Origin: Burkholderiales bacterium
GTDB lineage: Bacteria > Pseudomonadota > Gammaproteobacteria > Burkholderiales > Burkholderiaceae_C
Reading direction: 5' to 3'
Assembly: GCA_947381415.1 (NCBI GenBank)
Contig: CANCVB010000001.1
Span: 186,001 to 250,000, forward strand
Length of the DNA: 64,000 nucleotides
Made by a program: the position numbers and the translations under genes. The notes beneath the pieces were generated by a model that saw only the letters and a program-made list of their open reading frames with translations, did not search any database and was not told the DNA's origin. Shown here in pieces: positions 43,343 through 57,791 of this stretch (position 1 is the stretch's first letter; each line of letters opens with the position of its first letter).

Positions 43343-43381
43343 TACCTGCTGCCGCCTTGGGCGGTGCCAAGGACAAGCCAG

Positions 43382-44521
43382 ATGCTCGGTCCCGAACTTG
43401 TGAGTGCTGCCAGCCGGATAGGCTCAGTCCAGGTGGAGAACCGTTCGGTCTGGGTGCAAACACCGGTGGCCCAGCAACTGGGTTTGCGCGATGGGCAAAT
43501 CGTGCAAGCCACCGTCGAGGTTCGTGACCAACGGGTTCGACTGTGGTTGAAAGATTTCTTTTTTGAATTGCCCAATGGCTGGGTGCTCAAAGACGGCGAT
43601 AAACCGTTTTTGCGGGTCAGCCATAACGCGGGCAATTGGGGCTTTTTGATCCAAGCCTATCCCAACGGCCAAGCGCCTGCCGCGACTGCCACGCCGGTGA
43701 ACCAGTTGTTTGGCTTGCGTGAGACACCACCAGCGATGCTGTTGGACACAGCCACCCCCGAGCCATTGCCCAACCGTTTGGGCATGTTGCTGATGCATCC
43801 GCCCGGTTTCGCCACGTTTTCCAAGTTGCTCAACGACATCGCGCAAGGCAGTTGGGGCGCCCAAGCCGAGATCGGGCCGTGGTTAGGGCGTCTTTTGCAG
43901 CAGCGCAATTCCTTGGCACAAATGAACCCTGGCATGTTGCGCAAAGCGGTGCTGGGGCAGGCTCGCAGCATTGAAAATATTTTGTTGCAAGGCCAAGAGG
44001 GCGCGGACGAACCCAAGAGTTTGCTCAAACGCATTTTGGGCATGTTGACCGAAGAAGGCGGCAGCAAAGAAACCTTGCGCCAATTGGAAGAAGCCACCAC
44101 CGAGTTTGAGGCGGCACAAGCTCAAAGCGCGCAAAAAATGTTGCAAGGTGAACTTTCATTGCATGTCATCTTGCCCTTCGTAGACCATGAACCTGTGGAT
44201 TTGCATTTCCAGCGCCCGCCACGCAAAAAAGGCCAAGAAGAGCCGCCACTGAGCGTGGACATCCATTCACGCAGCCGCGTGTTGGGCGAGGTGTGGCTGA
44301 ACACCCAAATCTCCAAAGGCAACGATGTGGATTTGGTGATGTGGGCCATGCGCGGCGAGGTGGCGCATTTGGCGCGCGAACGCTCGGGCGAATTGGGACT
44401 GGAGCTAGGCTCGGCAGGCTTGCAGCTTCAGTCGTTTCAAATTTTCAATGCGCCTCGACCGCTGGCCAGGGTGAGCGAGTCCACGGGGACGCGGGGCTCG
44501 GTGGTTGATTTAAGGGCATGA
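43382..44521 (+). CDS. Second FliK-like hook-length-control domain protein
   Basis: A 379-residue cytoplasmic-looking protein whose C-terminal domain (LSLHVILPFVDHEPVDLHFQ, then GEVWLNTQISKGNDVDLVMW and SAGLQLQSFQIF) fits the FliK C-terminal (Flg_hook) fold. The N-terminal half has a short beta-rich region (SVQVENRSVWVQTPVAQQLG) rather than the Ala/Gln-rich spacer of classical FliK. The start at 43382 has AAGGA upstream; GTG 43364 is an alternative. It is followed by an FhlB-like gene. The canonical fliK is at 29332-31131, so this is a paralogue. Confidence 0.68.
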   Translation: MLGPELVSAASRIGSVQVENRSVWVQTPVAQQLGLRDGQIVQATVEVRDQRVRLWLKDFFFELPNGWVLKDGDKPFLRVSHNAGNWGFLIQAYPNGQAPAATATPVNQLFGLRETPPAMLLDTATPEPLPNRLGMLLMHPPGFATFSKLLNDIAQGSWGAQAEIGPWLGRLLQQRNSLAQMNPGMLRKAVLGQARSIENILLQGQEGADEPKSLLKRILGMLTEEGGSKETLRQLEEATTEFEAAQAQSAQKMLQGELSLHVILPFVDHEPVDLHFQRPPRKKGQEEPPLSVDIHSRSRVLGEVWLNTQISKGNDVDLVMWAMRGEVAHLARERSGELGLELGSAGLQLQSFQIFNAPRPLARVSESTGTRGSVVDLRA

Positions 44522-44525
44522 GCAC

Positions 44526-44849
44526 ATGAAAGCGCCGTTTGAAGCCGTTGCCCTGGAATATGGCAAAAAAAAAACCCCTCGCGTGGTGGCCAAGGGCCAG
44601 GAAGAGCTGGCGTTGCGCATCATCACCGAGGCCAAGCGCCAAGGCATTTATGTCGCAGAAGACCCGCAGTTGTTGGCCTTGCTGAGCCGTTTGAATGTCG
44701 GGGAAGAAATTTCACAAGACATGTACACCGCAGTGGCCGTGATTTTGTCTTGGGTGTATTGGCTCAAAGGCATGCAGCCAGGCGATGAGGCCAAGAAGAG
44801 CGAGCCTGACGCAGATCAGGCTGCGAAGCCAGATCAAGCTTCGTTGTAG
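44526..44849 (+). CDS. FlhB C-terminal-domain paralogue (FhlB-like)
   Basis: A 107-residue protein corresponding to the cytoplasmic C-terminal domain of the export switch FlhB: VALEYGKKKTPRVVAKGQEE, then GIYVAEDPQLLALLSRLNVG and EISQDMYTAVAVILSWVYWL. It has no membrane segments and no autocleavage NPTH motif, because it starts after that point. FhlB-type proteins can replace the FlhB C-terminus or act as switch accessories. It lies four bases after the FliK-like gene, its natural partner class, and overlaps flgN tail to tail by 16 bases. Confidence 0.8.
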   Translation: MKAPFEAVALEYGKKKTPRVVAKGQEELALRIITEAKRQGIYVAEDPQLLALLSRLNVGEEISQDMYTAVAVILSWVYWLKGMQPGDEAKKSEPDADQAAKPDQASL

Positions 44850-45715: not shown

Positions 45716-46489
45716 TTACAACCCCCTTGCCGTGTTCATACCGGTGACTACCGCTGACAAGAATCGGCCTGATTCTGGATTTTTCAAGCGAATTTGGTCG
45801 CCCAAAGTGCCATCTTGTTGGGCTTCAGCCCGAACAGTGATCAAAAACCCTTTGCCTTCACCCACAGCGACCAAGACCTGTTGGCCGCGTTTGACCATGG
45901 TGGAGGACTTCAGGTCTTGTTGGCGAAGTGGCGTGTTGGGGGGTAAATCGCGCTGCAATTCCATGTTGAGCATGTCGCGTTCATCACCAACGAAACGGGT
46001 TTCGTAGGAAGGAACTGGCATGTCGACTTGCTTGAACATGCCAGCTTGTAAGGGCGTGCCACGCTTGAGGTTTTGGGTAGATACCCAGACCGTGCGGTTG
46101 ATTTGGCCGTTGTTATTGGCTTGGTTGATTTGGTTGCCCAAGGTGTTTTTCACCTGAACCATCACAAAGTGTTGCCACAGCGGTTGGGCACAACGGGCAC
46201 GAACGCTTTGTTTGTTGCCAAAGGGTTGGTCAAACACGATGTCTTGGGCGCAAGCCTCGATCTTGATGCGGCTGTCCATGGGCAGGATGCTGACCAGGCT
46301 GGGATCGACTTTTTGGCTATCGACGACAAATTGTTTGGCACCCATCTCCAAAGCTGGCCAAGCAGTGGCTGCAGGCGCAGGCGTGTTTTGGGCTTGGGTC
46401 AAAGACACCACGCCGCCCAAGAGCACGGCTGCCAGTGCCAGGCTACCGCGAGTGGGTCTGGACATTGTCTGGAAGGTTCGGCACAGCAT
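45716..46489 (-). CDS. flgA: Flagellar P-ring chaperone FlgA
   Basis: The periplasmic chaperone for FlgI. About 258 residues, with a Sec signal peptide (LALAAVLLGGVVSLTQAQ) and a C-terminal SAF/ChapFlgA domain (TQNLKRGTPLQAGMFKQVDM, then GQQVLVAVGEGKGFLITVRA). Start choice is open: ATG at 46489 is used here. A TTG at 46495 has better spacing (six bases) from the GGAG site, and an ATG at 46465 has no site. A sigma-54 promoter and a large hairpin lie directly upstream. Confidence 0.88.
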   Translation of the reverse strand: MLCRTFQTMSRPTRGSLALAAVLLGGVVSLTQAQNTPAPAATAWPALEMGAKQFVVDSQKVDPSLVSILPMDSRIKIEACAQDIVFDQPFGNKQSVRARCAQPLWQHFVMVQVKNTLGNQINQANNNGQINRTVWVSTQNLKRGTPLQAGMFKQVDMPVPSYETRFVGDERDMLNMELQRDLPPNTPLRQQDLKSSTMVKRGQQVLVAVGEGKGFLITVRAEAQQDGTLGDQIRLKNPESGRFLSAVVTGMNTARGL

Positions 46490-46507
46490 TTGCAAGATGG
46501 TCTCCAA

Positions 46508-46548
46508 GGGTGTGAAAGTTTTGACGTTTTAGCGTCGTGTTCACACCC
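46508..46548 (-). other. Large hairpin in the flgA leader
   Basis: GGGTGTGAA (46508-46516) pairs with TTCACACCC (46540-46548), and inside this GACG (46523-46526) pairs with CGTC (46533-46536). It would form near the very 5' end of the mRNA from the sigma-54 promoter at 46551-46566 and ends directly before the GGAG site of flgA. It could also be an operator between the divergent genes. Confidence 0.6.
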
Positions 46549-46550
46549 GA

Positions 46551-46566
46551 TGCAAATTTGATGCCA
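46551..46566 (-). promoter_or_regulatory. Sigma-54 promoter of flgA-flgM-flgN
   Basis: On the minus strand TGGCAT (46561-46566), five bases, TTGCA (46551-46555) matches the -24/-12 consensus with one mismatch. The predicted start would be near 46540, at the foot of the leader hairpin. Confidence 0.75.
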
Positions 46567-46596
46567 GCAGAAATTCAACCCAGAGTCGGACGCAAA

Positions 46597-47739
46597 ATGA
46601 ACTTCAATATGGATCCCAAAGCATTCGTTAGAACAACGTTTGTCAATCCAAATGACCCGAACACATCTGCGCGCGCGACCAGCTTGGCTTTGCCGGGTCG
46701 GGTCGGTTTTGCCCAAACCTTGTCACAACTGCAACAAAGGTCAAGTGTCAATTCATCGACCATTTTGAATCCGCATGTCAAAAGTGTGGCGGTGCAAGAC
46801 GGTGACACCTTGAGCAGCATCGTCAAAGACCATTTGGCAGAACTTGGGCGGCCTGTTTCCAACAGCGAGGCTTTGCGTCTGTCGCAAGACGTTGCCAAGG
46901 CCAACGGCATCAGCAATCCCGACCGCATCTTTCCTGGGCAACGCCTGAACCTGAGCGTGTTGAGCCAGCCGCAGCAGGCTGCACCCAACCTGTCTACCCA
47001 ACAAGCCTTGCAAAGCAAACGTTTGCAGGCAAGCACTAACTTTCCTGTTTTGCCAGGCCAAAACCCGATTTTGCAAAAAACTTTGGACCGTGCCGTGGAG
47101 AAGGGCTATATACCTGCTGAAGAAAAGCAGCAGGTTTACCAAAAGATATTGGGCATGGCGCGCAACTACCAGTTCGCGCCCGATGACTTTGCCCGCTTGA
47201 CCTTGATGGAGAGCGACGGCATGAATCCCAAAGCCACCAATAACCGCTGCCACGGCATCATCCAGTTTTGTGATGGCCCCGACCGTGGCGCCGCCGCCGC
47301 CGGTTTTGCCAGCAACCCCAAGGCGATTTTGGGCCACAGTGTGCTCGAGCAGTTAGATATGGTGGACAAGTATTTCGACCATAACGGTTTGAAAACCATG
47401 GGCCCGACCAACTTGGACGATTTGTACCTCACGGTACTGACCCCTGCAGCGCGACGTGAAAAAGCACCCAACGCTGACTTGAATATCGCAGGCACGCAGG
47501 CGCAAAAGCTGTATGTCAACCGCGATCCCAACACCTTTATTACCCGCAACTCGATTGTGCAAGGCCTGCACCAGCACGCCAACGAACGTCTTGGCCTGTA
47601 CGAAACCGCCAAAGCACAGGCGCAAAAGCTGGCCCAAACCCTCACCCGCAGCAATCCACCGGTGCAAGTGGCCAACAACCAGCAGCGTGCCCAGGTGCTG
47701 AGGGTCGGCGCTTACCTGAACCAGGACTATTTGCGATGA
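46597..47739 (+). CDS. LysM plus lysozyme-like protein, candidate flagellar peptidoglycan hydrolase
   Basis: A 380-residue protein without a Sec signal peptide. A LysM domain lies at about residues 62-119 (VAVQDGDTLSSIVKDHLAEL, then IFPGQRLNL). A lysozyme/transglycosylase-like domain follows from about 160 to 330: the LTLMESDGMNPKAT stretch with candidate catalytic Glu205, and CHGIIQFC with two cysteines. It resembles an SLT-type fold (ESxxNPxA, GxxQF). The ATG at 46597 is preferred; an earlier frame start at 46537 would overlap the sigma-54 promoter of flgA. It is divergent from flgA and upstream of flgB. FlgJ in this window lacks a hydrolase domain, so this protein may do that job, perhaps after export through the flagellar apparatus. 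Confidence 0.75.
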   Translation: MNFNMDPKAFVRTTFVNPNDPNTSARATSLALPGRVGFAQTLSQLQQRSSVNSSTILNPHVKSVAVQDGDTLSSIVKDHLAELGRPVSNSEALRLSQDVAKANGISNPDRIFPGQRLNLSVLSQPQQAAPNLSTQQALQSKRLQASTNFPVLPGQNPILQKTLDRAVEKGYIPAEEKQQVYQKILGMARNYQFAPDDFARLTLMESDGMNPKATNNRCHGIIQFCDGPDRGAAAAGFASNPKAILGHSVLEQLDMVDKYFDHNGLKTMGPTNLDDLYLTVLTPAARREKAPNADLNIAGTQAQKLYVNRDPNTFITRNSIVQGLHQHANERLGLYETAKAQAQKLAQTLTRSNPPVQVANNQQRAQVLRVGAYLNQDYLR

Positions 47740-49499: not shown

Positions 49500-52400
49500 A
49501 TGTCCTTTTTTACCTCACTCACCGGTTTGAATGCAGCCACCGCGCAGTTGGGCGTGACCTCGAACAACATTGCCAACGCGAGTACCGTAGGTTTCAAGCG
49601 CAGCCGTGCAGACTTTGGCGATATTTTTGCCACATCGCCTTTGCAAAAGGCCACTTCAGCGGTCGGTCAAGGTGTGTCCTTGAAGCGCGTGACCCAAGAG
49701 TTTGGTCAGGGCAATATGAACTTCTCGTCCAACACCTTGGACTTGGCGATTTCAGGTGACGGTTTCTTCCCACTCAAATCAGCTGACGGCTTCCAAGACA
49801 TCTTCACACGCAATGGCTCATTCATGATGAATGACCAGTACAACGTGGTGAACTCGGCGGGACAGCGTTTGATGGCGGCGTCAGTGGACTCGACCGGTAA
49901 AGCCAACTTGAGCGACATGAATGTGTTGACCATTCCGCAAAAGACAACCGGCATGGCCAAAGAAACCTCTCTGGTGCAATTGGGTTTGAACTTTCCTGCG
50001 GACGCACAGGTGGTGACCAAGGCCTTCAGCCGTAACGACCCCTCAACCTACAACAAGAGTACCGCTTTGACGGTGTATGACAAGGGTGGTAACGGTTACT
50101 TGGCCACGGTGTATTACGCCAAAACACAAAACGCCAGCCAAGCCGACCCCAATAACAAATGGCAAACCTATGTGTATGTGGGTGACACGCTGGTGGCAGC
50201 GGCTTTGCAGCAAGCCACAGACTCCACCACCGGCGAAAAAATGTATGTCAACAAATACGGTCAGTTAAAGCCAGAAAGCGAAGTCAGTGATTTGTTGGTG
50301 AATGCGAAAACCCAAAAGTTCTCACTGAACCAACTCACTGACTTGCGCTCTTCCGAACCTGCCACCGTGACCGGTGGCAAAGCCAAAGACATGGGCAGTT
50401 TGTTGGGTATCAATGTCACGACAACTCCGACTGAAAAGCTTGACAGCCTCTTTACGCTGAATGTGGATGATTCTGGTCCCGTCACGATTGGTTTGGGACA
50501 TTTGGCGGGTCTTAAAACCAAAGATGGTGGTGATTTAACGCTGTCCGGCACAGAGATCGCCAAAGAACTGACCAATGTGATCAACCGCAAATTCGGTGAC
50601 GAGCGTTTCTTCAATTTCTTGGGTCAAGAAAACTTTTCCATCTCATCCACCAACAAAGAAGGCACGGTCACTGAAAACCGCGTGATTCAACTTGACACCA
50701 CCGACATGACCTATGAAGAGGTGGTTAACAAAATCAACCAGCAACTCAACGGCAGCAGCGCTGTACTGTCTAACGTGGGCTTCAGTGCCAACCCCACCGC
50801 TGGTGAATTCAAGGGTTACAGCTTTGACCTCAAGATTGGCGACAAAACCGTTCCGGTTTCCGGCACCCTGAGCTTGCCCTCGTCACTGAGCACAAAGCCC
50901 ATGCAAGACTTGTCGACCACCTTGCAAACCCGTGTTCAATCGGACTTACAAAAATACTACGGCTTCAGCAGAGAACAAGCCGCCAAATTCACAGTCAATG
51001 TTCAAAATGGCAGCGAAATTCGTTTAACCAGTGGCGACACTTCAACGGTTTCAAATTTGCAACTGTCCACCGTTAGCACGGGCTCACCCGCCACAGTGAC
51101 CAATACGGTTGCCTTGGCTATTCCAGACACTTTAGCCACGGATACATACAGTACTTTGGATGTGTCCATTGGCGGCGTTACCTTGCCTACGATTGACATC
51201 AGTCTCTTGGATACATCTACGCCGGAAGCTTTCGCGAAAGGTCTCAAGGCCAACCTGCAAACGGCACTGGTTGCCAAAAATTGGCCTACCTACCAAGTCA
51301 ATTCCATCGACGTGACGGTAGACGGTACAGACTTTATCGTCTCCGATGCCACAGGTCACAAAATATCCAATTTCACCATTACGCCCAAGCCAACTGAAGC
51401 AGAACCTTCACCGACCCCGTTGAGCGCCCTCGCGGCTGATTCCAAAGTGGTGATCTCGGATGTTGCTTTTGCCGCTGCGACATTGGGCAGTGAAAGCAAG
51501 CTGGACCACTTTGACAATTTAAAAATTGAATTGACCACCAAAGATGGCGACAAGATTGCGAGAAAAATCACCTTGGCCGAAATCAAGGCCGCCGCAGGCG
51601 ATTTGTTAGCGGATTTCGATCCAGACAACACAGAGCAATGGGCCGCCTTGGAAGACACTGTCAAAACGCTTGTCAACGATGGCAACAATTGGTATGACAA
51701 CTCTGACCCGACGGCAGTCAGTCCAGACCCTGTGGCTGATCCGACGGCATTGATTGGTCCATTGACCCTTGCCTGGCCTGACGCCAAAACATTCTCACTC
51801 AGCGCCGAAGCGGGTAGCGAAACATTTTTATCGAACGTGTCATTCAACGTGAGTACCGATACGGCTATCAATGAATACCTTGTCAAGGGCAAGGACATAT
51901 TGCAAGTAGGAACGACAGCAACCAACTCCACCAGTTCATTGACTTTGCCCAATGTGAGCTTTCCCATGTCTGGGAAAGTCGATGGCAAGGAGTTTGAAAA
52001 CTTCAGTTTCACCGTGGATGGTGTGGTCTATCCCGACCCCGCTGTCAACAACCAAACCTATGGGAAGCTAGACCTGTCCTCCAAACTGAGCAGCTCGCCC
52101 ATCAACGATTTGGCGGCTGAGATGCAAAGTCAAATCCGCGCGCAACTGCTGAATTCGGCCGATGCTGCTTGGAAGGTGCCTGATCGTGTGACCAAGGTGA
52201 CTGTGACGGTGGTCAATGGCAAAGATTTGAAGATCACTGACGCAGGTGGTGCTGATTTTTCAGATTTGACTTTGACGGCCAAAGACCCGACGACAACATC
52301 TGCAGGCGGCAGGCACTTCGCTGTGTCAGCGATGAAAAACCAAGTGACAGCCAGCTATGACCCTGTGGCGCAGAAATTCAACTTTACCCCTCCCTTGAGT

Positions 52401-53783
52401 TCGGGTACTGTGGTGGGCTTGTCGGGTGCGAACAAACAGATTGGTATTTCTACCCCTGTCACACAAGACCCTGGCAGCGATTCCTTGAGCACCTCGGGTG
52501 CCCCTGGCAACGACAACAACTTCATTCGTCCCGAAAAATTCCAACGTTTCGGCATGAAGGTGGAGTTCGATACGGTCAACGATAAATTCATTTTCAAATC
52601 GGGGACCACAGGAGACACCTCCAGCATTACCGTCAAAGACGCGGCGGGTATTGCGACAGAGCGTTTGGGTTTGGTGGCTGACACAAAATACACGGTGACC
52701 AATTCTGCTGTCGCCTTGCGCGGTATCGCTTCGCAGCCCGCTGTGATGCAAGGTTCACCCTTGGGCATCAACGCCAACAACAACTTCAGCGTGAATGCCA
52801 CCAACAATAAATTCGTGGTGTCGGTCGATGACGTCAAAGGTACTGTTTACCTGGACCAAGACAACAACTACACGATTGAAAAATTTGTTCAAGCGCTGCA
52901 AAAAGGTATCAACCGATTGTCGGGGCCTGCAGATAAAAATGGCTTGACGGGATCTTCGGTCTCAGGCGTCAAGGTGTCTTACGATTCTGCAACCAACAGT
53001 TTGAAGTTCACCACGGGTACCGCATCGACCAATTCGTTTATCAAGGTCTCTGGCGACAGTCAGTGGGGCTTGGCCAACGTCGACGGTGGTCGCGGTGCCA
53101 CATCCACATGGATTAAGCCTACCCAATACACCCAAGTGGTCAATGGTGTGGCCGTTGCGCAGTACATCGATGAATTCGGCAAAGAGACCTTCAGCCCTGA
53201 TGGCTTCAAGTCTTTGCCTGAATGGTCACCCATCTTCTTGGAAAAAGGCGAACTGACCTTTGACACCGGCGGTAACTTGGTGTCACCCAAACAAGGTTCA
53301 CAGTTGGACACCGTATACCTGCCAGACGGTAAGGGTGCGTTGACCATCAACATCAATTATTCCAAGTCAACCCAGTTCTCCTCCCCCTATGCGGTGTTGT
53401 CTCAGTCGCAAGACGGTGCACCTGAAGGTGATTTGGTGGGCTTGTCTTTGGGCGATGATGGTTTGGTCAATGCGTCTTACTCCAACGGATCACAAAAATC
53501 CTTGGGCAAGGTGGTCTTGGTGAACTTCACCAACCCGACCGGCCTGCGCCAGATTGGTGACACCAGTTACTACAAATCGGCCTCCTCAGGCACACCAAAG
53601 TATGGTGAGGCTGGTTCTGCCGGTTTTGGCACGGTGCGCTCGGGCGCCACAGAACGTGCCAACGTGGATTTGACGCAAGAGTTGGTGGATTTGATCACCG
53701 AACAGCGTAACTTCCAGGCCAATGCCAAGGCGATTGAGACCAGCACCACGCTGACCCAATCTATTATTCAAATCAGAGCGTAA
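49500..53783 (+). CDS. flgE: Giant flagellar hook protein FlgE
   Basis: The hook subunit, 1427 residues against about 400 in enterobacteria. The ends are normal: N-terminal FFTSLTGLNAATAQLGVTSN, SNNIANASTVGFKRSRADFG and the D1 segments, and C-terminal DLITEQRNFQANAKAIETST. The extra about 900 residues between roughly 340 and 1280 hold three diverged repeats (about residues 425-527, 550-630, 817-930) with alternating beta strands and a short helix, then beta-rich regions with a flagellin-hook-type motif (GTVYLDQDNNYTIEKFVQAL). The frame is continuous, with no sign of a frameshift. The outer hook domains should be very bulky. It follows flgD by 35 bases. Confidence 0.93.
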   Translation: MSFFTSLTGLNAATAQLGVTSNNIANASTVGFKRSRADFGDIFATSPLQKATSAVGQGVSLKRVTQEFGQGNMNFSSNTLDLAISGDGFFPLKSADGFQDIFTRNGSFMMNDQYNVVNSAGQRLMAASVDSTGKANLSDMNVLTIPQKTTGMAKETSLVQLGLNFPADAQVVTKAFSRNDPSTYNKSTALTVYDKGGNGYLATVYYAKTQNASQADPNNKWQTYVYVGDTLVAAALQQATDSTTGEKMYVNKYGQLKPESEVSDLLVNAKTQKFSLNQLTDLRSSEPATVTGGKAKDMGSLLGINVTTTPTEKLDSLFTLNVDDSGPVTIGLGHLAGLKTKDGGDLTLSGTEIAKELTNVINRKFGDERFFNFLGQENFSISSTNKEGTVTENRVIQLDTTDMTYEEVVNKINQQLNGSSAVLSNVGFSANPTAGEFKGYSFDLKIGDKTVPVSGTLSLPSSLSTKPMQDLSTTLQTRVQSDLQKYYGFSREQAAKFTVNVQNGSEIRLTSGDTSTVSNLQLSTVSTGSPATVTNTVALAIPDTLATDTYSTLDVSIGGVTLPTIDISLLDTSTPEAFAKGLKANLQTALVAKNWPTYQVNSIDVTVDGTDFIVSDATGHKISNFTITPKPTEAEPSPTPLSALAADSKVVISDVAFAAATLGSESKLDHFDNLKIELTTKDGDKIARKITLAEIKAAAGDLLADFDPDNTEQWAALEDTVKTLVNDGNNWYDNSDPTAVSPDPVADPTALIGPLTLAWPDAKTFSLSAEAGSETFLSNVSFNVSTDTAINEYLVKGKDILQVGTTATNSTSSLTLPNVSFPMSGKVDGKEFENFSFTVDGVVYPDPAVNNQTYGKLDLSSKLSSSPINDLAAEMQSQIRAQLLNSADAAWKVPDRVTKVTVTVVNGKDLKITDAGGADFSDLTLTAKDPTTTSAGGRHFAVSAMKNQVTASYDPVAQKFNFTPPLSSGTVVGLSGANKQIGISTPVTQDPGSDSLSTSGAPGNDNNFIRPEKFQRFGMKVEFDTVNDKFIFKSGTTGDTSSITVKDAAGIATERLGLVADTKYTVTNSAVALRGIASQPAVMQGSPLGINANNNFSVNATNNKFVVSVDDVKGTVYLDQDNNYTIEKFVQALQKGINRLSGPADKNGLTGSSVSGVKVSYDSATNSLKFTTGTASTNSFIKVSGDSQWGLANVDGGRGATSTWIKPTQYTQVVNGVAVAQYIDEFGKETFSPDGFKSLPEWSPIFLEKGELTFDTGGNLVSPKQGSQLDTVYLPDGKGALTININYSKSTQFSSPYAVLSQSQDGAPEGDLVGLSLGDDGLVNASYSNGSQKSLGKVVLVNFTNPTGLRQIGDTSYYKSASSGTPKYGEAGSAGFGTVRSGATERANVDLTQELVDLITEQRNFQANAKAIETSTTLTQSIIQIRA
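50772..52290 (+). repeat. Three diverged internal repeat modules within flgE
   Basis: Modules at about 50772-51080, 51147-51390 and 51950-52290 share a pattern: a strand ending in IGDKTVP, IGGVTLP or VDGVVYP; a segment containing DLSTTLQTRV, FAKGLKANLQ or NDLAAEMQSQ; then a strand with VNVQNGSEIRL, DVTVDGTDFIV or VTVVNGKDLKI and a final SNLQL, SNFTI or SDLTL. The similarity is visible at protein level only. Confidence 0.65.
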
Positions 53784-53805: not shown

Positions 53806-54573
53806 ATGGATCGTCTGGCCTTTAACGCTTCTGCTGCCATTACTGAAATGCGTTTGGCCCGTCAGGCCTTGGCCAATGAAATGGCCAACATCACGACGAC
53901 GGGTTTTAAGCGTTCCTATGAAGTCTCGCTCAAGGCCTTCAAGGCCGAAGGCGAGGGCTTTGACTCCAATTACCAGCCTCAGGCTCAACATGCGGACTTC
54001 ATCAAGTTGGCCCCTGGTCCCTTGATGGCAACCGGCCGCGATTTGGACATTTTGATGAACGACCAGACAGTGTTGGGTGTGCAAGCCCCTAACGGTGAAC
54101 TGGCATTTACCCGCCGTGGCGACCTGCAGCTCAACGTCAATGGTGTGCTGCAGACCGGCAATGGTCATCCGGTCCTGGGTGAGAATCAGTCTCCTATCAC
54201 CGTTCCGTCAGGCTTTAAAGCGACGATTACCCAAGACGGTGGCGTTTATATCCATGATCCCAGCCAGCCTGGTACCCGCCAAGAGACCCAAATTGCTCAG
54301 CTTTTGCTGCGTGACGCCAGCAAAACCCCCTTGACCCGGCGCGAAGACGCCTTGTTTCGGGCGCACGATAAACCGTCAGGCGCGGATTTTGCTTCAGGTC
54401 CTGTGAAGGCGTCAGTCACGACACAGGCACTCGAGGGCAGCAATGTCAGCCCCACCGAGGCCATGGTCAAACTGATTGAACAGTCGCGCATGTTTGAACA
54501 ACAGGTCCGCATGGTGAAAGCCAGCCAAGAAAACGACCAGTCCGGTTCTTCCATGCTCAAACTGTCGACGTGA
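53806..54573 (+). CDS. flgF: Flagellar proximal rod protein FlgF
   Basis: A 255-residue rod protein with the N-terminal motif LARQALANEMANITTTGFKR and the C-terminal motif SPTEAMVKLIEQSRMFEQQV. It connects FlgB/FlgC to FlgG. The gene follows flgE by 22 bases and precedes flgG by 48. Size and motifs are normal for the family. Confidence 0.94.
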   Translation: MDRLAFNASAAITEMRLARQALANEMANITTTGFKRSYEVSLKAFKAEGEGFDSNYQPQAQHADFIKLAPGPLMATGRDLDILMNDQTVLGVQAPNGELAFTRRGDLQLNVNGVLQTGNGHPVLGENQSPITVPSGFKATITQDGGVYIHDPSQPGTRQETQIAQLLLRDASKTPLTRREDALFRAHDKPSGADFASGPVKASVTTQALEGSNVSPTEAMVKLIEQSRMFEQQVRMVKASQENDQSGSSMLKLST

Positions 54574-54621
54574 TGACAGGCGCTCAGGCGCTGATTGATT
54601 GAAGAAAACAGGGGTTAAGCG

Positions 54622-55407
54622 ATGGATGCAGCTTTATGGGTTTCAAAGACCGGCTTGGATGCGCAGCAAACGCGCATGAATGTCATTTCGAACAACTTGG
54701 CCAACGTTTCCACAACGGGTTTTAAGCGCGACCGCGCGGTGTTTGAAGACTTGCTGTACCAAAATATCCGCCAAGCGGGTGGTCAAAGCACCGCCAACAC
54801 CCAGGCACCCACGGGTTTGATGCTGGGTACGGGTACCAAGGTGGTTGCGACTGAAAAACTGCATATCCAAGGTAACTTGGTCAACAGCCAAAACCCTTTG
54901 GATGTCGCCATCATGGGTGACGGGTTTTTTCAAATTCAGCAACAAGACGGAACCGTTGCCTATTCGCGTGACGGCGCATTCAAGCTGTCGGGAACCGGAC
55001 AACTGGTCACATCCACTGGCTTTTTGCTCGAGCCCAATATCACCATTCCCAATAACGCATCGGCATTGACCATTGGTCGCGATGGCACGGTGTCGGTTGA
55101 ATTGGTCGCTGGCGGCGGCCAGCAGGTCTTGGGTCAAATTCAAATTGCCAAGTTCGTCAATCCAAGTGGTTTAAAGCCATTGGGTAACAACTTGTTGGCT
55201 GCCACGGCATCCAGTGGTCAGGTGCAATTGCTGCAACCTGGCACCGTGGGTGCAGGTGTCTTAAACCAAGGCTCGATAGAAGCCTCTAACGTCAACGTGG
55301 TGGAAGAAATGGTCAACATGATCGAAACCCAGCGCGCCTATGAAATCAACTCCAAATCGATCGAAGCGGTCGACGGCATGTTGAAGTACTTGAACCAAAA
55401 CCTGTAA
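54622..55407 (+). CDS. flgG: Flagellar distal rod protein FlgG
   Basis: The distal rod subunit, 261 residues. The N-terminus shows VSKTGLDAQQTRMNVISNNL and STTGFKRDRAVFEDLLYQN, including the FlgG-specific extended loop region; the C-terminus has NVVEEMVNMIETQRAYEINS. Length matches Salmonella FlgG (260). It lies between flgF and flgH. Confidence 0.96.
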   Translation: MDAALWVSKTGLDAQQTRMNVISNNLANVSTTGFKRDRAVFEDLLYQNIRQAGGQSTANTQAPTGLMLGTGTKVVATEKLHIQGNLVNSQNPLDVAIMGDGFFQIQQQDGTVAYSRDGAFKLSGTGQLVTSTGFLLEPNITIPNNASALTIGRDGTVSVELVAGGGQQVLGQIQIAKFVNPSGLKPLGNNLLAATASSGQVQLLQPGTVGAGVLNQGSIEASNVNVVEEMVNMIETQRAYEINSKSIEAVDGMLKYLNQNL

Positions 55408-57281: not shown

Positions 57282-57791
57282 ATGAGCGATACCACCCACA
57301 TCAACAGCGCCAAGTCGTATAACGACTTCACGGCCTTGGGCGAACTGCGCGGCAAAGCGCAGCGCAGTGATGCAGGTGCCATGCGCGAGTCGGCCGAGCA
57401 GTTCGAGGCCTTGTTCATTCAAATGATGCTCAAGTCCATGCGTGAAGCGTCCAGCGCCATGAAAAGCGATTTGTTGCACAACAATGCACAAGAGACTTTC
57501 GAAGGCATGTACGACAAAGAAATTTCCATGCAAATGGCCAAGCGCAATGCGTTGGGCTTTTCGGATGTGGTGGTTAAAAACCTGAGCCAGCAAAAGTCTG
57601 TGCCCAGCACCTCAGAGTTACTGCAACTGCGCCAAACCTCAACCATCCAAAACGGCATGCCCTTGAATGCGCCTGTGTTGCCCATGTCATTGGCCAACAA
57701 AGCGCAAGCAGGCATGGTTTTGCAGAAAAACACCTTGAAACCTTTGCCGCTGACACCGTCTTTGCCTTTGAGCCTGGGGAATGAGCCATGA
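57282..57791 (+). CDS. flgJ: Rod-capping protein FlgJ, single-domain form
   Basis: A 169-residue FlgJ limited to the N-terminal rod-capping domain (MRESAEQFEALFIQMMLKSM, then GMYDKEISMQMAKRNALGFS) and a Ser/Leu/Pro-rich tail. Enterobacterial FlgJ is about 313 residues and carries a muramidase domain, which is missing here. The missing part is not a frameshift product, because the stop overlaps the flgK start by four bases (ATGA). A hydrolase must come from elsewhere; the LysM-lysozyme protein at 46597-47739 is the best candidate. Confidence 0.93.
   Translation: MSDTTHINSAKSYNDFTALGELRGKAQRSDAGAMRESAEQFEALFIQMMLKSMREASSAMKSDLLHNNAQETFEGMYDKEISMQMAKRNALGFSDVVVKNLSQQKSVPSTSELLQLRQTSTIQNGMPLNAPVLPMSLANKAQAGMVLQKNTLKPLPLTPSLPLSLGNEP

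Follow-up and report, generated by a model that had tools for sequence, protein, structure and literature searches.

The 64,000-nucleotide stretch of DNA analysed here (the window; contig CANCVB010000001.1, positions 186,001 to 250,000, from a Burkholderiales bacterium) encodes a flagellar hook protein, FlgE, of more than three times the usual hook-protein size. Its ordinary core is split within domain D2 by a very large insertion that, as judged by sequence comparison, holds four tandem homologous modules, the third of which is weakly supported. The protein is a real, conserved and extreme form of a known hook design. As to its function, we put at about 0.5 the probability that the modules are the outer layers of a thick, reinforced hook matched to an enlarged propeller. 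The window is part of a 2.51-Mb genome (40 contigs, 99.9% complete) of the Limnohabitans type, from a freshwater bacterium related to that genus. Coordinates of all features are compiled in Table 1.

Assignment to FlgE is based on the N-terminal rod/D0 motif, D1, D2 and the C-terminal Flg_bbr_C domain, which are all present and in the correct order. Pfam placed Flg_bb_rod at residues 5–33, the FlgE/F/G D1 domain at 83–151 and Flg_bbr_C at 1381–1425, while FlgE_D2 was matched as two stretches, the best one covering residues 167–289. FlgE chains in the PDB matched at E 5e-70, and the NCBIfam FlgE equivalog models matched strongly but below their whole-protein cut-offs (best 365/472 bits), an effect to be expected when a match is split by a large insertion. 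The gene sits between flgD and flgF within the flgBCDEFGHIJKL cluster and encodes the sole FlgE found in its genome; two further matches are pieces of one flgG frame of 262 amino acids (aa). An earlier note on this DNA had described an oversized FlgE in one open frame with normal ends, and this description is borne out: residues 4–229/244 and 1255/1271–1426 align with solved FlgE chains of 402–437 aa. In Salmonella numbering, the gap occupied by the insertion falls between about residues 229 and 247. The FlgE core scores higher against the FlgE of PDB entries 9yee and 8z5u (238–240 bits) than against that of Salmonella (181 bits); the 8z5u sequence equals that of 8z5y, an entry titled as the hook of a polar flagellum.

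The modules (M1 to M4) were delineated within the insertion by several lines of sequence comparison. The best self-alignment paired residues ~419–534 with 812–934 (score 109, z 11.6), and 0 of 300 shuffles scored as high; 210 pairs of segments were scored in this analysis and the shuffle test was applied to the best 15 only. Self-BLASTP of FlgE yielded nothing beyond the full-length match. Profile–profile comparison with hhalign, using module profiles built from the window FlgE and seven close orthologues, gave E-values of 2.7e-21 for M1–M4, 1.4e-12 for M2–M4 and 3.6e-10 for M1–M2, as well as 2.3e-5 (76%) for M1–M3 and about 6e-4 for M2–M3 and M3–M4. Hidden Markov models (HMMs) built with one module left out recovered M1 (5.6e-12), M2 (8e-8) and M4 (2.4e-15) and failed to recover M3 (E 0.9); none of 545 shuffled sequences matched the module HMM at i-E<0.01. 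By these comparisons, M1, M2 and M4 are related beyond doubt and M3 more weakly, M3 being the least certain module because its comparison with a later segment (residues 1085–1200) scores equally well (4e-4). The earlier note had proposed three repeat modules around residues 425–930, followed by beta-rich sequence. Repeat homology is confirmed, but the count has to be raised to four copies covering residues 418–939, embedded in an insertion that extends from ~245 to 1254.

A conserved segment downstream of M4 was found in 60/60 FlgE by an iterated module HMM. Its homology to the modules is suggestive, and we do not claim it as a further module because direct profile comparison with hhalign, which was not significant (13.7%), fails to confirm the iterated HMM. 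What had been noted earlier as a ‘flagellin-hook-like segment’ is conserved and predicted to have a module-like order of strands and helix; Flagellin_IN (PF07196) matched 0/28 FlgE and 0/7 pieces of the window FlgE. Flagellin_N and Flagellin_C were likewise both absent from FlgE (Pfam), so that the protein does not class as a giant flagellin. Upstream of M1, a further predicted domain, termed M0, has a similar order of elements, despite which its homology to M1–M4 was not significant (hhalign below 1%).

Table 1. Features of the giant flgE and of related genes; coordinates refer to the window unless another contig or locus is named.
Feature	Coordinates	Strand	Basis
flgE, giant flagellar hook protein, 1427 aa	49500..53783	+	single open frame, ATG start
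N-terminal core, D0/D1 and first part of D2, residues 1–244	49500..50231	+	PDB FlgE alignment
Insertion in D2, ~residues 245–1254 (~1,010 aa), edges approximate	50232..53261	+	gap between aligned stretches; FlgE_D2 split
M0, residues 312–412, predicted strand-strand-helix-strand-strand-helix	50433..50735	+	AF2, mean pLDDT about 85
Module M1, residues 418–530	50751..51089	+	module HMM E 3.9e-32
Module M2, residues 541–642, no L073 counterpart	51120..51425	+	module HMM E 4.9e-24
Module M3, residues 648–799, most divergent copy, no L073 counterpart	51441..51896	+	module HMM E 2.3e-18 (M3 in model)
Module M4, residues 811–939	51930..52316	+	module HMM E 1e-32
Conserved outer segment, residues 1092–1175, module-like	52773..53024	+	iterated module HMM
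C-terminal core, end of D2, D1, D0, residues 1255–1427	53262..53780	+	PDB FlgE C-termini alignment
flgD, hook cap, ordinary size, 235 aa	48757..49464	+	Pfam
flgF (255 aa) and flgG (261 aa), ordinary size	53806..55407	+	frames, Pfam
flgK, enlarged hook-filament junction protein, 1258 aa	57788..61564	+	Pfam FlgK_D1 and three Flagellin_IN stretches
flgL, ordinary size, 309 aa	61579..62508	+	PF00669 match
Giant flagellin, 1383 aa	L143:3965-8113, own contig C26, outside window	-	Flagellin_N and Flagellin_C
Flagellin, 726 aa	L142:3705-5885, just beyond window end		own genome

Structure prediction, as suggested in the earlier note, gave a chain of compact modules. The AlphaFold2 (AF2) model of residues 145–1305 was computed as a monomer from an alignment of 28 sequences and reached a mean predicted local distance difference test score (pLDDT) of 76 and a predicted template modelling score (pTM) of 0.63; it replaced a single-sequence model with a pLDDT of 36. 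Mean pLDDT per module ranged from 71 to 88, with M4 predicted at the lowest confidence (71). M1, M2 and M4 are predicted to consist of strands, one long helix and three strands, the same order as predicted for the conserved segment at ~1092–1190, and M3 of strands, two helices and strands. In a Foldseek search with the whole model, H. pylori FliD (6iwy) was matched at E 4e-4 (probability 0.84); weak scores were obtained for C. jejuni junction and FlgK chains. A resemblance to phage tail sheath domains was also noted: Foldseek matched the sheath 8fvg over 111 columns (probability 0.97, E 0.02) and a named sheath protein over 140 columns (probability 1.00, E 0.0045), and DUF3383, which we take to be a sheath family, was matched over M3 in 3/28 FlgE, at E-values of 1.4e-4 to 0.016 below cut-off. 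On the other hand, TM-scores by target were 0.14–0.17, and PHROGs gave no match for M1–M4, with chance lines in segment 1085–1200. The sheath-domain resemblance is a weak lead on fold only, and it offers no argument for a sheathed hook, which had been considered in the earlier note.

Searches for known families within the insertion were negative. Residues 290–1250 compared with all PDB chains at E up to 10 gave no hook chain, the three lines obtained being at chance level (E 0.26–0.91). Pfam searches of pieces of the insertion and of 28 FlgE gave no enzyme or adhesin family above cut-off, and the lines seen for M1 (CBM_6, E 0.043; a zonadhesin cohesin-like model, E 0.075) are at chance level as well, so that the adhesion role put forward in the earlier note finds no backing. 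The same result bears on the idea that the inserted part undergoes processing once exported, or that it harbours an enzyme, in the way flagellinolysins carry a protease within flagellin. Flagellinolysins have been reported from Hylemonella, Rhodoferax, Limnohabitans and Comamonas (PMC7643111), but since none of the enzyme families reached its cut-off there, we regard this explanation as very unlikely for the insertion.

The giant FlgE is widespread among relatives. Among 36 other genomes of the same genus that were sampled, 27 matched the query P0001, a few of them only by a fragment or a rod protein; 20 same-genus loci were fetched, and all 14 complete flgE genes among them encode proteins of 931–1441 aa, the remainder being cut at contig ends (L035, L048, L050, L051, L052) or interrupted (L049). 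A second set of 78 named loci, fetched with a giant-type query of which the best 80 matches were kept and hence not a random sample, contained 59 complete flgE (840–1572 aa, median 1142) and 45 complete flgK, with 39 loci counted for both; many of these loci are the same contigs as the same-genus genomes, so the two counts are not independent. Isolates are included, namely Limnohabitans sp. B9-3, Jir61, JirII-31 and Rim11 with FlgE of 1056, 1280, 1260 and 840 aa. The search for FlgE above 1000 residues in related genomes, which the earlier note had called for, was thus successful, the largest FlgE seen having 1729 aa (G363, L165). In an order-wide sample, FlgE_D2 was found in at least 256/399 genomes, with frames mostly of 405–540 aa among the matches listed. 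Seven GC-rich genomes outside the genus had initially appeared to carry giant FlgE (frames of 575–1179), but these were stop-to-stop frames that shrank to 406–421 aa after start correction.

In a tree of the FlgE core (41 rows, midpoint root), the giant type forms one clade (100/100) on a long branch. This clade spans 794–1729 aa and includes G175 and G363 of another family (f18) and G254 of another genus of the same family, while a separate clade of enlarged FlgE (557–1033 aa) comes from families f18 and f32; the loci outside the own genus are L161–L168 (G254, G175, G207, G236, G363, G053, G370 and G348). The presence of more than one family in the giant clade, together with the separate enlarged clade, indicates that the giant type probably moved between families and that FlgE enlargement probably arose at least twice.

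Close relatives differ in their number of modules. Four modules are present in six of seven close orthologues and two in the seventh (L073, 1179 aa), while ten further relatives show one clear module copy at ~396–502 (E 8e-8 to 2e-13). Alignment A1 (15 sequences) showed conserved ends (~1–300 and ~940–1427) and a hypervariable middle. Codon comparison of four pairs gave ratios of nonsynonymous to synonymous substitution rates (dN/dS) of 0.08–0.19 for the modules, with module dS near saturation (about 2.5–2.7) in two of the four pairs, and of 0–0.06 for the core (N-terminal residues 2–290, 0.01–0.06; C-terminal core, 0–0.06). For P0001 versus L061, dN was 0.003–0.011 in the core and 0.515 in the modules. 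These values indicate that the modules are under purifying selection on average and that the insertion, despite its rapid evolution, is translated and under constraint. Together with the giant size of all 14 complete same-genus flgE and of the 59 relatives, they argue that the giant gene is not an assembly artefact. A fusion or frame error, which the earlier note had named as a danger to its interpretation, or a decayed gene could point to the interrupted flgE and short flgK frame of G023; this explanation is contradicted by the recurrence of the same architecture type in independent assemblies, named isolates among them, by the continuous frame and by the codon-level purifying selection, and its probability is negligible. 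In G023 itself (L049, L066), flgE is interrupted into two frames of 1192 and 225 aa and the best flgK frame, of 560 aa, is without the C-terminal end, due to either decay or assembly error.

How might so large a hook protein work? The closest precedent is FlgE of Campylobacter jejuni (PDB 5jxl, 5az4), which shares with the window protein the conserved D0–D2 and a large outer insertion in D2. Its domains D3/D4, inserted in D2, go along with a hook 280 Å wide versus 180 Å in Salmonella (PMC5097172; PMC5069557). In the C. jejuni hook they form outer rings with extra contacts within and between protofilaments; deletion of D3/D4 left stubs in >90% of cells and many broken flagella (PMC5097172). Conversely, Salmonella given D3 and D4 formed bulkier working hooks that were perhaps slightly stiffer (PMC5069557). 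Caulobacter crescentus FlgE also carries an extra domain, D3, in D2 and forms a wider hook of 245 Å (PMC5069557), although with a single extra domain in a far smaller protein. The C. jejuni protein, at 865 aa, was termed one of the longest in 2016 (PMC5069557). It differs from the FlgE described here in having 851–865 aa and ~386 extra residues, as opposed to 1427 aa and ~1,010 extra residues with four homologous modules, and the insertion point appears to lie later in D2 (~229–247, whereas the published chimera with the C. jejuni domains was joined at 167/168, PMC5069557). Stepwise enlargement of an axial protein by tandem duplication of its outer region is known from giant flagellins with tandem DE regions in Oceanospirillales, hence from flagellin and not from a hook protein; their filaments are at least 30 nm thick versus 24 nm, with a benefit that was called unclear, and passages of that paper naming the hook or FlgE deal with distinguishing flagellins from other proteins (PMC6248924). 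A literature search, which mostly did not reach subscription journals, found no paper pairing Limnohabitans with FlgE and no title or abstract on hooks so large. Size variation of FlgE is already known, but here close relatives differ by whole modules, which provides a natural series for studying how the diameter, stiffness and strength of a hook depend on its outer domains.

By analogy with C. jejuni D3/D4, the modules should form further layers. In the reading we favour, the ordinary D0, D1 and D2 would build a normal 11-protofilament tube, while the ~1,010 inserted residues would fold into compact modules arranged as a chain (the four homologous copies and the domains flanking them) and project outward as extra layers (D3 and beyond) around the hook. 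The hook would then be unusually thick and, through contacts between these outer domains, reinforced, which would suit it to the torque of a propeller that is enlarged to the same degree, as FlgK and both flagellins are oversized too. The location of the insertion inside D2, where C. jejuni and Caulobacter carry their extra domains, and the predicted compact modules lend weight to the large exposed hook domains postulated in the earlier note; stiffening by the modules is plausible by the C. jejuni precedent (PMC5097172). We infer outward-facing, mutually touching modules, a thicker and stiffer hook, and selection for these properties. Mass scaling from three hooks (filling 0.41–0.51), for which we assumed a rise of 4.1 Å per subunit and 591 aa for Caulobacter FlgE, extrapolates to a hook diameter of 34–38 nm, a value that is not a measurement.

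In line with a matched propeller, the junction and filament proteins are enlarged as well. FlgK measures 626–729 aa in 12 ordinary Burkholderiales genomes with FlgE of 406–456 aa, 830–1523 aa in genomes with the giant FlgE type (the interrupted G023 aside) and 908–1523 aa among the 45 complete FlgK of the named set. FlgE and FlgK lengths correlate with rho 0.65 (n 39, named set), 0.79 (n 30, all) and 0.46 outside the genus (n 20, p 0.04). The largest flagellin has a median of 1357.5 aa in 14 same-genus genomes versus 353 aa in 34 others with FlgE <550 aa, some flagellin lengths in the size table being stop-to-stop frames; one genome, G014, with a complete FlgE and no flagellin match, is outside that table. 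FlgE versus largest flagellin gave rho 0.70 (n 57, all) and 0.42 outside the genus (n 43, p 0.005). The simplest common reason for these sizes is most likely that hook and junction are matched to the strength, and perhaps the diameter, of a thick propeller. Whether the three parts are dimensioned to fit one another is a question that this clade invites.

Several points weigh against this interpretation. Within the genus, the correlation of FlgE with the largest flagellin fell short of significance (rho 0.32, n 14, p 0.26), and when six doubtful rows with perhaps cut flagellin frames (G015, G038, G060, G196, G333, G236) were left out, the values for all genomes, outside and inside the genus read 0.71, 0.37 and 0.23. 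None of the size correlations is adjusted for relatedness, and those over all genomes enter kin as independent points and draw on a small number of lineages. Individual genomes deviate: G254 has an FlgE of 794 aa yet flagellins of 283–291 aa, in G015 an FlgE of 1179 stands beside flagellin frames of no more than 404 and 276 among those listed, which are perhaps cut, and G207 and G053 have FlgE of 1033 and 703 with FlgK of about 500. Size coupling is thus loose, with exceptions. A whole-phylum flagellin sample, with no flagellin frame above 800 among the matches listed, is uninformative on coupling outside Burkholderiales. Furthermore, the insertion is without sequence relation to Campylobacter D3/D4, the ends that join the core in the model (model residues 1–20 and 1092–1161) have a pLDDT <50 in a monomer of the pTM given above, and the presumed diameter and mechanics of the hook derive from analogy and model.

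Because the size correlation is loose and the modules evolve fast, they might instead act mainly as a variable surface coat, serving escape from phages or grazing protists, or surface contact, with mechanics being secondary. The module region indeed evolves far faster than the core and its length differs among close relatives, and strain variability of C. jejuni D3/D4 had been attributed to host selection (PMC5097172). Nevertheless, four modules are kept in 6/7 close orthologues, the average dN/dS is purifying even if dS nears saturation in 2/4 pairs, and no adhesin or enzyme family rose above cut-off, so that we consider this role rather improbable, though worth keeping in mind. We are more sceptical of a neutral ratchet, in which outer domains tolerate insertion and duplication and size drifts upwards without a specific function. 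The wide FlgE length range (840–1572 aa) and the lack of significant tracking of flagellin size within the genus would fit such drift, but a small genome (2.5 Mb) retains the giant gene, 14/14 complete same-genus genes are giant, dN/dS is well below 1, and export of such a large subunit is presumably costly, making the ratchet unlikely. How the export channel handles a 1427-residue hook subunit is a question raised by this protein in any case.

The part most worth following is a module family that extends across hook, junction and filament proteins. An HMM built from FlgE modules only matched FlgK of relatives (L089: 4.7e-7 and 6e-8), and after iteration 10/46 FlgK were matched (21 domains) versus 0/327 shuffled controls; FlgK of the own genome was unmatched before and after iteration. 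Among flagellin frames, the FlgE-only HMM matched 3/15 at E <0.01 (best 6e-5), including the 1383-aa flagellin of the own genome at 4e-3, which improved to 2e-10 after iteration. Profile comparison of FlgE with FlgK modules gave 98.3% (E 2e-14; reversed control 6.6%) and of FlgE modules with flagellin segments 90.4% (reversed control 13.9%), values that are biased towards agreement, since HMMs grown from FlgE had served to select the segments of FlgK and flagellin. At the level of sequence profiles, the module family is common to FlgE and the outer domains of some relatives' FlgK, and more weakly to giant flagellins. Although tentative, it is conceivable that hook, junction and filament of these freshwater Betaproteobacteria carry a matching coat drawn from one traded module family, giving a continuous thick armoured flagellum whose thickness would be tuned by module number.

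The other genes of the cluster are unremarkable in size: FlgB, C, D, F, G, H, I and J are ordinary where present in same-genus loci. FlgJ of the window (169 aa, 57282–57791, + strand) matches the rod-binding domain only. A LysM protein of 400 aa (46537–47739, + strand) lies upstream of flgB and divergent from flgA (45716–46507); it may supply the wall-cutting done by FlgJ elsewhere. Further upstream, at 43364–44849 (+ strand), the window encodes a FliK-like protein of 385 aa, with a Flg_hook match at E 5e-4 that stays below cut-off, and after it a protein of 107 aa that matches the FlhB family model at its end. Elsewhere in the genome (L142:10444-15000, - strand), a frame of at least 1518 aa contains 63 matched ALTTAQ repeat stretches (PF20080).

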